This document shows positions 50,753-56,381 of a stretch of 64,000 nucleotides of DNA, in pieces. Source of the DNA: SAR324 cluster bacterium REDSEA-S27_B3 (GTDB lineage: Bacteria; SAR324; NAC60-12); the NCBI GenBank assembly GCA_001627865.1, contig LUQO01000004.1, positions 136,384 to 200,383 of the forward strand, in the 5' to 3' direction. The notes below the pieces were generated by a model that was given only the letters and a program-made list of their open reading frames with translations, made no database searches and was not told where the DNA came from. The first letter of the stretch is position 1, and each line of letters begins with the position of its first letter. A program made the position numbers and the translations under genes.

Positions 50753-53700
50753 ATGAACAATCGGATGGATTCAAACAATAAAAAAAATAAAAAACAAACA
50801 TCTGCATTTCATGCTGCTGAAGTAATGTCACACGATCTTTCTCTTTTGCGGGGGAAGAGGCTTTCTGCATTTTTTGATGATTCTGAAGTTAAAGGTTTGT
50901 TATCAGCAGAAGAGATAGAAAAAAAGGTTCAGCAATTGAAGAGAATTGATGTGGATTCATATATTCAACGTGTAATCAATCCCTCTGAATCAAAAAAGCG
51001 TCCAAGCGCCCCGGAAATAATTCAGCAATTAGGTGGCAAAATGATTGCTGAAGAAACAGACGGGCCGCTTTACATGTCCGAAATTGAAATAAAGTTTTCA
51101 GGGCAACCCCGCAGACTGGGTTTTATTGCACAGAATCACAAAATACAAAATGGTGTCTGGTACCCAAATCATCACCGTAAGGCGGCAGAAAAAGTGCGCT
51201 TTTTTGCTTCACACAGTATTCCATTAGTGACATTCATGGATACTCCCGGAGCTGCCGCAGATGCAGAAGCAAATCTGGGTAACCAATCTCACAGCATTTC
51301 ATTTTTAATAAGTGAGATGGCAAATTTGCAACTACCTGTTATCGGTGTAGTGTTTGGAGGCGGTTATAGCGGGGGGGCAATTCCATTGGCAACAGCAAAT
51401 ATTCTGCTTTCTGTCAGAGAAGGTGTATTTAACACGATACATCCTAAAGGCTTAAGTAACATTGCGCGTAAATATGATCTGTCCTGGCAGGAGTCTGCAA
51501 AACACATTGGTGTTTCCGCTTATGAGCTTCAATCACAAGGGTATTTTGACGGCATCATAGATTATGCTTATGATCAGCCTCATCAGGTAAAAAACATAAA
51601 GGATGCTATTATCAGCGCGGTTGAGATAACTGAGAAAAATTCATGTAATTTTTTGTATGATAATGAATTCTTCTTCGACCATTATCGCGATAGTATTTAC
51701 CATTATCTCAATCCCTCAAAACTACTGATTGAAAGCAACCGTGTAACCGATCGTTCACCAACGGGGACATTGAATATATTTGGTGATGTTTATCGTTTCA
51801 TGCGTTACCTCAAATTGCGTCAGCGCATTGTCAGCCGATCTATAGAGAATTATGCAAGGCTGAGCTCTCGGAAAACTCCGGTTGGAAAATTACAAGAAAG
51901 GTTAAAAAATGAGCGACAGGAAAAATTCCAGCAATGGTACAAAACACCTTTGGAAGTCCGATATCATGAAAAACTTAACAAACGGTTGGAACAGTTTGTC
52001 AGCGCAAGAGAAGATCGGGAAAAAGAGCGCGGGAAATTTGTAGCATTTTTTATAGGTGATCCACGAGAGAATTATCAAAAAGCTATAGATGATTTAACCT
52101 TGGAAATCCTTCTTTATCTTTATAATTTCTGGATGGATAGTACCTCAGAAAACCTGAAGGAACTTAATGAGCAATTGAGTAAATCCACTCTCCATGATCA
52201 TGCGCCAGATAATCCGAATTTACTTGATTTACTCAGAACAACTGAAATATATAAGAGCTTTCAAAAGAATTTCCAGAACATACTTCTTTTTGATTTACTT
52301 TACAATCAGGTAATAGAAGCACTCCCAACAATAGCTAATGAACTGAAAGGCACAAATCAAATTTCCCAGAAATCCGTGGAACAGCTTTTCGAACAAACTG
52401 TTGAGGGAGCTATGGAGGAATTTGAGAAAAACTCTTTGCATCATGAAAGCCATGATTTACGATCCCAGTTTTTCAAGTGGCTTGCAGGTTTTATTGAGCG
52501 CAAGGATTGTGATGATGTTTTGGGGACCATCAGTGAATGGAAAAAAGTTGTTTTTCCAAGAATGAGTCCTCCGCTGTTTGGGGTAGTTCGTTATTATTTT
52601 TCCGGGCTGCTGCCTTCGCTTTATGCCGCCCAGCAGAATAAGGGACGTTTTCAGGGGAAAATTACTCCACGCAACATTGGAATTAAAGATTTCTGGAATC
52701 GGCTTGATCAATCCTATAAGGATTTATTAATCCAAAATCTGCTGAGAGAAAACAAACGAAATATTATCACTCCAAAAAAAGTTATTGAGCATTTTTTCAA
52801 AGATTTTGAGGAACTGTATGCTGATAGAATTACCTCTAACCCTGTAAAATTTCCTGGTTTTCGAGATGCGATTGAGCAGGCATTAGAGAATGGGGTAACA
52901 CCATGTGGTGTGGTAACCGGACTGGGAACATTCACAGGTGATGAAATAACTGAATCTGACGAAGGGAAAAAATCAAAAACCAAAAAAACTAAAACAAATT
53001 ATCGTGTCGGACTTGTGGTAAGCAATGTGGAGTTTCAAGCAGGTTCTTTTGACATGGCAAGCTGTGAAAAAGTTTGCAGACTGCTTGATGATTGTGCTCG
53101 TTTAAAATTGCCTGTGATCTTTTTTATCTCTTCAGCAGGCATGCAAACAAAAGAGGGCGGCGGCTCTTTATTTTCCATGGCCATCATTAATGAACGCATT
53201 ACCCGATTTGTAAAGGACTTGGATCTTCCGGTACTGTGTTTTGGTTTCCGTGACTGTACCGGAGGGGCACAGGCTAGTTTTGTCACTCATCTGCTTGCAA
53301 GAACATATTATTTTTCCGGATCACAAATACCATTTGCCGGTCAACTGGTAGTAGAAAGTCATTTGCCAGCCCATTCTACATTATCAAATTATTTGTCCAG
53401 TAATCCAGGAACAATGGATGGTCTTGTAAAAAATCCGTTTGACAAGGGAATTGATGAAAAACTGAAGGAAATTGATCCGCAAATTCCTGTCGGCCAATTC
53501 TCAGTGGAAGAGATCATCTCGCGTATCCTGTCAGGTGAATATCAAATCTCAGCAGGTGAAGAAGTCAAATCATATTCCACTCAGGAAAATTTACACACTG
53601 GCGAAATAAAACGAATTTTAATTCACGCCCGGGGATGTACCGCTGCCAGACTGATACGAGGGTCACAGGATGCAGGACTGGAGGTTGTGCTGGTAGCTTC

Positions 53701-55348
53701 TGATCCGGATATGGAAAGTTATCCTGCCAGCTTGCTGAGCGAAAAAGATCACCTGGTTTGTATTGGAGGAAAAACTCCCCAGGATAGTTACTTGAACGGA
53801 ATGAGTGTAATAAGAATCGCCGAACAGGAGGAAGTTGATGCAATTCATCCCGGAATTGGTTTTTTATCAGAATCACCTCATTATGCACGTATTTGCAGAG
53901 AGCATGGATTCAATTTTGTAGGTCCTCGTGCGGTAAATATGGACAGAATGGGGAACAAATCGAATGCGATTGCTACCGCCCGAAGCCTGAATATCCCTGT
54001 TGTCCCTGGTAGTGAAGGTGCCTTAATGGAACCTGCGCACGCTATGAACGTGGCTTCAGAAATTGGTTTCCCTGTTCTGATAAAAGCCGCTCATGGTGGT
54101 GGAGGTAAAGGGATTGAGGTAGTGAGAGAGGCTGGGCGGTTCCAGTCTACTTTCACTCGTATGTCACAGGAAGCTTTGAGCGCTTTTGGAAATGGGGATT
54201 TATATCTGGAAAAATACATTGGTTCAATGCGTCACCTGGAATTGCAGATAATTCGTGACATGCACGGCAATTCAAAATTGCTGGGAATTCGGGATTGTTC
54301 CATTCAGCGTAACTACCAGAAACTTATTGAGGAAACTGCTTCCAGAATTCCTACAAAAATCAAGGATCAGCTATATAATTATGCAGAAAAATTGATTGAG
54401 GAAATTGATTATGTAGGTGCGGGAACAGTAGAATTTATCTACGATTTGGCAGAAAAAAAGGTGTATTTTATGGAAATGAATACACGTCTTCAAGTAGAGC
54501 ATCCTGTATCTGAAATGGTTTCCGGAGTTGATCTTGTTCGCCAGCAGTTTGAAGTTGCACAGGGTAATAACATTCGTGATTTGGATTATAAGCTAAACGG
54601 ACATGCAATTGAATTGCGTGTGATTGCCGAGAAAGTTGAGTTGGATGATAATGGTGAATTATTGTTTGTGCCCGATCCAGGTCATGTGACAGAAGTGTTT
54701 TTCCCTGAAAAGTCTAATGTAAGAGTTATTCAAACGGTAACTTCTGGTTCTGTGGTTTCACCTTTTTATGACAGCCTTGTTGCGCAAATTATTTGCTGGG
54801 GCAAATCACGCCGCGATGCAATCAACCGTTTACTTGATTATTTAAAACGAGTGAGAATTCATGGTATTTCAACTAACCTTGCTTTGAACCGTGCAATTTT
54901 GCAGGATGCGTCTTTTCAAAAAGGAAGTTTCAGCACAGGATTTCTTGCGGATTTTTTCATGCGAATTGACTCACAGAAACTATTAAATGAAGCCCGAAAA
55001 GATTCCGGTGCGTCAAAAAGTCCTGTGGATAAAAAGTCCATAATGCTGGAAGGCTCAGATGAACTTAAAGTCTTATCTCCCCAGATGGGCGGCTTCTATC
55101 GCGCCCCGTCAGAAGAAGATGATCCGTTTGTCAGTGAGGGTCAGATCATTGACGTAAATCAAACACTCTGTTTGCTGGAATCAATGAAAGTCTTCTCAGA
55201 GTTAACGCTTTCGGACTATAAAGGTCCGGATGGCAGTACATTATATCCGGATGATATTAAATACAAAGTAACTCGAGTTATTGCAGAAGACCAAAACACT
55301 GTAAATCAGGGCGATTTGCTATTTGTGATGCTGCCTATGGTTGCCTGA
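50753..55348 (+). CDS. Single-chain acetyl-CoA (acyl-CoA) carboxylase: CT-alpha / CT-beta / BC / BCCP fusion
   Basis: The 1531-residue chain holds all four carboxylase functions. Residues ~90-290 are AccA-like (MDTPGAAADAE ~162, GGGYSGGAIPL). Residues ~300-670 are a helical linker of unknown role. Residues ~690-935 are AccD-like (SSAGMQTKEGGGSLF, GGAQASF) without a zinc ribbon. Residues ~950-1400 are biotin carboxylase (HGGGGKGIEV, RDCSIQRNYQKLIEE, FMEMNTRLQVEHP; ATP and catalytic residues kept). The C-terminus is BCCP with the biotin Lys ~1479 in LESMKVF, with extra residues after the Lys. It presumably makes malonyl-CoA for fatty acids. The order is opposite to eukaryotic ACC. Confidence 0.9.
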   Translation: MNNRMDSNNKKNKKQTSAFHAAEVMSHDLSLLRGKRLSAFFDDSEVKGLLSAEEIEKKVQQLKRIDVDSYIQRVINPSESKKRPSAPEIIQQLGGKMIAEETDGPLYMSEIEIKFSGQPRRLGFIAQNHKIQNGVWYPNHHRKAAEKVRFFASHSIPLVTFMDTPGAAADAEANLGNQSHSISFLISEMANLQLPVIGVVFGGGYSGGAIPLATANILLSVREGVFNTIHPKGLSNIARKYDLSWQESAKHIGVSAYELQSQGYFDGIIDYAYDQPHQVKNIKDAIISAVEITEKNSCNFLYDNEFFFDHYRDSIYHYLNPSKLLIESNRVTDRSPTGTLNIFGDVYRFMRYLKLRQRIVSRSIENYARLSSRKTPVGKLQERLKNERQEKFQQWYKTPLEVRYHEKLNKRLEQFVSAREDREKERGKFVAFFIGDPRENYQKAIDDLTLEILLYLYNFWMDSTSENLKELNEQLSKSTLHDHAPDNPNLLDLLRTTEIYKSFQKNFQNILLFDLLYNQVIEALPTIANELKGTNQISQKSVEQLFEQTVEGAMEEFEKNSLHHESHDLRSQFFKWLAGFIERKDCDDVLGTISEWKKVVFPRMSPPLFGVVRYYFSGLLPSLYAAQQNKGRFQGKITPRNIGIKDFWNRLDQSYKDLLIQNLLRENKRNIITPKKVIEHFFKDFEELYADRITSNPVKFPGFRDAIEQALENGVTPCGVVTGLGTFTGDEITESDEGKKSKTKKTKTNYRVGLVVSNVEFQAGSFDMASCEKVCRLLDDCARLKLPVIFFISSAGMQTKEGGGSLFSMAIINERITRFVKDLDLPVLCFGFRDCTGGAQASFVTHLLARTYYFSGSQIPFAGQLVVESHLPAHSTLSNYLSSNPGTMDGLVKNPFDKGIDEKLKEIDPQIPVGQFSVEEIISRILSGEYQISAGEEVKSYSTQENLHTGEIKRILIHARGCTAARLIRGSQDAGLEVVLVASDPDMESYPASLLSEKDHLVCIGGKTPQDSYLNGMSVIRIAEQEEVDAIHPGIGFLSESPHYARICREHGFNFVGPRAVNMDRMGNKSNAIATARSLNIPVVPGSEGALMEPAHAMNVASEIGFPVLIKAAHGGGGKGIEVVREAGRFQSTFTRMSQEALSAFGNGDLYLEKYIGSMRHLELQIIRDMHGNSKLLGIRDCSIQRNYQKLIEETASRIPTKIKDQLYNYAEKLIEEIDYVGAGTVEFIYDLAEKKVYFMEMNTRLQVEHPVSEMVSGVDLVRQQFEVAQGNNIRDLDYKLNGHAIELRVIAEKVELDDNGELLFVPDPGHVTEVFFPEKSNVRVIQTVTSGSVVSPFYDSLVAQIICWGKSRRDAINRLLDYLKRVRIHGISTNLALNRAILQDASFQKGSFSTGFLADFFMRIDSQKLLNEARKDSGASKSPVDKKSIMLEGSDELKVLSPQMGGFYRAPSEEDDPFVSEGQIIDVNQTLCLLESMKVFSELTLSDYKGPDGSTLYPDDIKYKVTRVIAEDQNTVNQGDLLFVMLPMVA

Positions 55349-55364
55349 TCATTTGTCAGCAGTC

Positions 55365-56381
55365 ATGAATCAAACACAAAAAATTACTACCAATATTTCT
55401 TCTCCTCCGCCAGCAAGTTTAGATCAAATCCTTCAGCCTGTCTCTTCAGACATAGAAATTCTTGAGTCACAGATATCCCGTGATATAAAAACCGACATCC
55501 CTTTGCTCAACAATGCGGCAGAACATATTTTAAGTTCCGGAGGAAAGCGTCTGCGTCCTTCTCTGGTACTTTTAGGGGCGGAGCTGTTTGGAGGTGTTAA
55601 CGAACATGTAATGCAGGCGGCTCAAGTAGTTGAGTACATACACACTGCAACATTGCTGCATGATGATGTTGTGGATGGCGCAGAAACAAGGAGATCAAAA
55701 CAAGCTGTATGCAGAATATGGGGAAATGAGGCGAGTGTACTTTCAGGTGATTATTTGTTTGCAATGTCTTTTCACCGAATGACTAAAATGCGCAATTCTG
55801 AAGTTTTGAAACTCATGTCGGAGACAACAACAAAGATGGCACTTGGGGAATTGTTACAATTAACTCGTTCATTCGAAACAACAGATGAAGAAGAATATTT
55901 AGAAATAATTATTAACAAAACTGCGTGTCTTTTTGCTGCAGCAATCAAAACTGGTGCACTGCTTGCCGATGCTCCTGAAAACTCCGCAAATCAGTTGTAT
56001 GATTACGGTATGGCTTTGGGGATTTGTTTTCAGATAGTTGATGATGCTCTTGATTATACGGACGAGAAAAAAACAGGGAAACCTGTGGGAGGTGATTTGC
56101 AGGAACGCAAAATTACCCTGCCTTTGAGTCATTTGCTCGAAAAAGCAAATCAAGGGGACAGGAAACGGCTGGAAGAGATTTTATCCGGAAAGGAAATTGA
56201 AAAATCTCAAATTAATGAGGTAATCAGCATGATGAAAAGTTACGGTTCAATTCCGTACACATTAGCATACTCCAAAAAGTACGCACTTAAGGCTCAAAGC
56301 TGTTTAGCTAATTTTCCTGATTCGGCTTTGAGAAACGCTCTTTCCCAAATAGCTGATTTCATTGTTTCACGACAGGATTGA
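55365..56381 (+). CDS. ispB: Trans-polyprenyl diphosphate synthase (IspB type)
   Basis: This all-helical prenyltransferase extends farnesyl diphosphate with isopentenyl units to make the quinone side chain. Both aspartate-rich motifs are present: LLHDDVVDGAETRR and FQIVDDALDYTDEKKTGKP. SSGGKRLRPSLVLL binds diphosphate. I use the ATG at 55365; the track's TTG start overlaps the carboxylase gene. It is the last gene of the 46.7-56.4 kb run. Product chain length cannot be read here. Confidence 0.92.
   Translation: MNQTQKITTNISSPPPASLDQILQPVSSDIEILESQISRDIKTDIPLLNNAAEHILSSGGKRLRPSLVLLGAELFGGVNEHVMQAAQVVEYIHTATLLHDDVVDGAETRRSKQAVCRIWGNEASVLSGDYLFAMSFHRMTKMRNSEVLKLMSETTTKMALGELLQLTRSFETTDEEEYLEIIINKTACLFAAAIKTGALLADAPENSANQLYDYGMALGICFQIVDDALDYTDEKKTGKPVGGDLQERKITLPLSHLLEKANQGDRKRLEEILSGKEIEKSQINEVISMMKSYGSIPYTLAYSKKYALKAQSCLANFPDSALRNALSQIADFIVSRQD

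Follow-up and report, generated by a model that had tools for sequence, protein, structure and literature searches.

The gene analysed here very probably encodes a bacterial acetyl-CoA carboxylase (ACC) of the homomeric AccADCB (AccS) family in its SAR324 version. The enzyme would make malonyl-CoA from acetyl-CoA, likely as a homodimer, and would be essential; it is most likely the only ACC of the organism. It lies in the window, the whole stretch of 64,000 nucleotides that was analysed, whose host is a SAR324 (Lambdaproteobacteria) MAG with a completeness of 88%. We directly observed the architecture of the protein, the conservation of its active-site residues, its full-length homology to a known enzyme, the fold of the half that holds CT and the insert, and the lack of separate subunits in the genome. 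The architecture is real but already known, and the SAR324 gene adds no new kind of enzyme; the modest new point is the distribution of AccADCB, which is wider than its published gamma-proteobacterial limit.

Domain Architecture and Active Sites

The open reading frame runs from ATG to stop, has no internal stops, and encodes 1531 residues, along which Pfam and NCBIfam profile searches placed the ACCA match at residues 127–293, the accD model at 746–893, biotin carboxylase (BC) at 952–1403 and BCCP at 1420–1485. The four-in-one chain that had been proposed by the sequence-only reading, with CT-alpha first and then CT-beta, BC, and BCCP, is thus borne out, with a helical insert standing between the two CT halves. 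The features are as follows:

50753..55348, + strand: accADCB (accS), predicted single-chain acetyl-CoA carboxylase, 1531 aa (phmmer to 9kkm; Foldseek)
51038..51652, + strand: CT-alpha (AccA-like), residues ~96–300 (PF03255, 97.6 bits at 127–293; alignment with E. coli AccA)
51653..52822, + strand: helical insert between the CT halves, residues ~301–690 (AlphaFold2 model; match to 9kkm/9w4a)
52823..53572, + strand: CT-beta (AccD-like), no zinc ribbon, residues ~691–940 (TIGR00515, 35 bits at 746–893; alignment with E. coli AccD)
53603..54961, + strand: biotin carboxylase (BC), residues 951–1403 (NF006367, 479 bits; active-site residues kept)
55058..55345, + strand: BCCP, residues 1436–1531 (TIGR00531 and PF00364 matches; ESMKV motif vs. 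E. coli EAMKM)
55187–55189, + strand: predicted biotinyl lysine, Lys1479 (ESMKV aligned with E. coli EAMKM)
55341..56381, + strand: polyprenyl synthetase gene, downstream neighbour outside the enzyme (PF00348, 256 bits)

The same fused frame recurs, at 52–90% identity, in almost every other genome from two SAR324 families, and therefore an assembly artefact is excluded.

In the BC domain, the catalytic and ATP-binding positions checked by alignment with E. coli AccC (K116, K159, E201, H209, K238, E276, E288, N290, R292, E296, and R338) are all kept, as had been claimed for the catalytic residues, and a few changes are found elsewhere, e.g., R167K and H236Y. The carrier lysine, Lys1479, sits in the motif CLLESMKV when aligned with the E. 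coli K-12 subunit. The CT glycine motifs are also kept, with a GGGYSGG oxyanion-type loop in CT-alpha (alignment with E. coli AccA) and GGAQASF in CT-beta (alignment with E. coli AccD). The four zinc cysteines of E. coli AccD have no counterpart in the aligned CT-beta, in agreement with the missing zinc ribbon noted earlier, and the match to the canonical AccD model TIGR00515 reaches 35 bits against a cut-off of 317 bits, so that CT-beta does not qualify as a canonical AccD.

The helical insert, for which ~370 residues had been claimed, measures ~390 residues and is almost all helix in the AlphaFold2 model of residues 1–945 (mean pLDDT 74, 18 sequences in the alignment). When the insert was folded by itself and no alignment was supplied, the model was of no use (pLDDT 36).

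Relation to the AccS Enzyme of Shewanella oneidensis

The best solved match of the protein is to PDB entries 9kkm and 9w4a, both titled “Acetyl-CoA carboxylase multifunctional enzyme AccADCB”, over residues 17–1529 (1463 bits, phmmer). According to the Foldseek listing, 9kkm is the cryo-EM holoenzyme dimer of Shewanella oneidensis carrying the mutation E1238A, released on 2025-11-19; our literature search did not find a paper describing this structure. The mutated E1238 corresponds to E296 of E. coli AccC and to E1249 of the window protein, where this glutamate is intact. The insert by itself matches 9kkm with 35% identity over 383 residues (E 9e-67), with no convincing match other than 9kkm/9w4a in the PDB sequence search, and the model of residues 1–945 superposes on 9kkm with a TMq of 0.83 over 922 columns (Foldseek). 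Judged by this match, the insert is common to the Shewanella AccADCB and hence is not special to the SAR324 host.

The S. oneidensis enzyme was studied in vivo under the name AccS (PMC11602165, 2024). The protein carries biotin and migrates at close to 170 kDa, its under-production slows growth, and E. coli accA, accD, and accBC together rescue the growth of AccS-depleted cells (PMC11602165). The SAR324 protein resembles it in full length, domain order, helical insert, BC active site, and C-terminal BCCP, with both lacking the zinc ribbon; identity by domain is 35–56%, one linker excepted, and the two proteins belong to different phyla. In addition, accADCB, possibly in the sense of a single gene, is listed with the genes for fatty acids in two Berkiella genomes (PMC9803151).

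Compared with the split AccA, AccB, AccC, and AccD of E. coli, the SAR324 enzyme shares the four functions and a CT made of alpha-like and beta-like halves, but it is a single chain, lacks the AccD zinc ribbon, and has the extra helical domain. With the eukaryotic homomeric ACC it shares the presence of every function on one chain, whereas the eukaryotic order is BC-BCCP-CT (PMC3199775) and the profile matches of the SAR324 protein give CT-BC-BCCP. This difference from eukaryotes, also part of the sequence-only reading, is correct, although it had been pointed out before for AccS (PMC11602165).

In Shewanella, the LysR-type gene accR is divergent from accS, whereas no LysR gene was found among the accADCB neighbours scanned in the window; therefore, AccR control as in Shewanella is probably missing in the SAR324 host. 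The end of accADCB overlaps the polyprenyl synthetase gene by 8 bases in the window, and the run of hydroxyacid dehydrogenase-like, unknown, TPR, accADCB, and polyprenyl synthetase genes is kept within the genus and breaks up outside it, the polyprenyl synthetase neighbour being retained only inside the genus.

Carboxylase Complement of the Host

No other accA, accD, or accC-type genes were found in the 88% complete host genome apart from acyl-CoA carboxylase chains, which include two separate beta-type chains of 539 and 561 aa and an alpha-type chain of 694 aa. Searches in two relatives, G024 (99% complete) and G027 (97% complete), likewise found no split set. As no split genes were found in the host, and in part on the strength of these more complete relatives, AccADCB is most likely the sole ACC of the organism. 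The reading of the protein as an ACC is further supported by the biotin ligase gene of the organism and by at least one encoded malonyl-CoA consumer, a pfa-type polyunsaturated fatty acid synthase. The pfa-type cluster (L166 3745-18435, on the - strand of G000:C5 in the host genome) reads KS-MAT-ACP, KR-DH, KS-KS, and FabA-FabA. In the host genome and in G024, no standalone fabD was found, and every match to the FabD model falls in an acyltransferase domain that is part of a multidomain ORF; G027, by contrast, has a fabD of 308 aa.

It could also be thought that the single chain acts on a different acyl-CoA, such as propionyl-, methylcrotonyl-, or long-chain acyl-CoA, given that the CT halves are divergent from those of E. 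coli and that the Foldseek matches include 5fif, a bacterial carboxylase that is single-chain but of a different kind. We consider this very improbable, since that other role is already filled in the host by the separate beta-type and alpha-type chains, the CT belongs to the type split into AccA and AccD, and acetyl-CoA carboxylase is the function of the closest relative studied so far. Moreover, single-chain long-chain acyl-CoA carboxylases have the BC-BCCP-CT order, unlike the SAR324 protein.

Distribution and Origin of the Fused Enzyme

The homologues of AccS have been said to be confined to Shewanella and a few gamma-proteobacterial genera (PMC11602165). The named relatives of the window protein are MAGs of the SAR324 cluster or Candidatus Lambdaproteobacteria, and in our survey of 52 genomes of the phylum, the AccADCB CT-alpha was found in 39 of the 41 genomes of families f1 and f2, with a standalone accA in none of these 41. 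The same picture emerged when selected genomes, G024 and G027 among them, were searched for accC and accD. The two exceptions, G020 and G029, are both draft MAGs, and another genome of the same genus as G020 (G040) has AccADCB. In one genome, numerous stops interrupt the AccADCB frame (G005:C1:431062-435629), and indels from sequencing are the probable cause. AccADCB is also present on a Lentisphaeria-labelled contig (L054) and in four related genomes (G054–G057), at roughly 40–48% identity, while in further relatives of this group accD is split and about 290 residues long. The group is not firmly placed, the rRNA of G057 being 80% like that of its relative G062 and 78% like that of E. coli over partial stretches only.

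A truncated Shewanella-type accS with one internal stop, labelled cmlA5 in the plasmid gene table, was also seen beside a divergent LysR gene and adjoining blaOXA-436 on plasmid pOXA436 (NZ_KY863418.1; L067 6043-9899), which suggests an origin from a Shewanella chromosome.

The sequence-only reading had suggested a possible independent origin of multidomain ACC, and this did not hold, given that AccS, insert included, had been described earlier (PMC11602165), one of the grounds on which that reading was itself to be dropped, and its structure solved (PDB 9kkm/9w4a). The domain phylogeny that had been proposed as a check, carried out here on BC, also spoke against it. In the maximum-likelihood tree of 42 BC domains, where the gamma-proteobacteria are represented by one full sequence only, all fused BCs form one clade (support 100/100), which a long stem of 1.94 changes per column sets far apart from the split AccC, and the Shewanella BC groups with the Lentisphaeria set (100/99). 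As read from this tree, the fused enzymes share one origin.

A separate fusion of the split subunits that SAR324 itself possesses would fit the fact that accA, accD, and accC are still split in SAR324 families at a greater distance, with a standalone accA in 7 of the 11 genomes of the other two families. Such a fusion is, however, highly implausible, as SAR324 shares the insert with Shewanella and the Lentisphaeria group, the fused BCs form a single clade, and forcing the fused BCs of SAR324 into one group with its split BCs, to the exclusion of the others, was 235 log-likelihood units worse and was rejected by the AU test (p-AU 3e-39); therefore, the fusion was not made anew in SAR324. Neither placement of the whole fused clade was rejected, be it with the split AccC of SAR324 (p 0.31) or with that of E. 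coli (p 0.27). The other four of the 11 genomes, all large SAR324-class genomes (G048–G051), showed neither accA, AccADCB, nor accD above the cut-off, but many acyl-CoA carboxylase chains.

On balance, we favour the view that AccADCB is a horizontally moved, cross-phylum replacement of the split ACC, fixed in two SAR324 families, the Lentisphaeria-labelled lineage, and gamma-proteobacteria, with the loss of accA/accD/accC, and that its published range is too narrow.

Proposed Mechanism and Significance

By analogy with its family, the BC domain of the SAR324 AccADCB would carboxylate biotin on Lys1479 using ATP and bicarbonate, and the carrier domain would then move to the CT site, whose AccA-like half and AccD-like half would be linked into one chain by the helical insert. 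Carboxyl transfer to acetyl-CoA at this site would yield malonyl-CoA for lipid synthesis, with the enzyme probably working as a homodimer, as in Shewanella. AccADCB would be the first enzyme of fatty acid synthesis and carry out its committed step in a marine lineage that is widespread, and its SAR324 and Lentisphaeria-labelled members may provide many natural variants for the study of the recently solved Shewanella holoenzyme, and also for the question of how the split ACC gave way to one made of a single chain.
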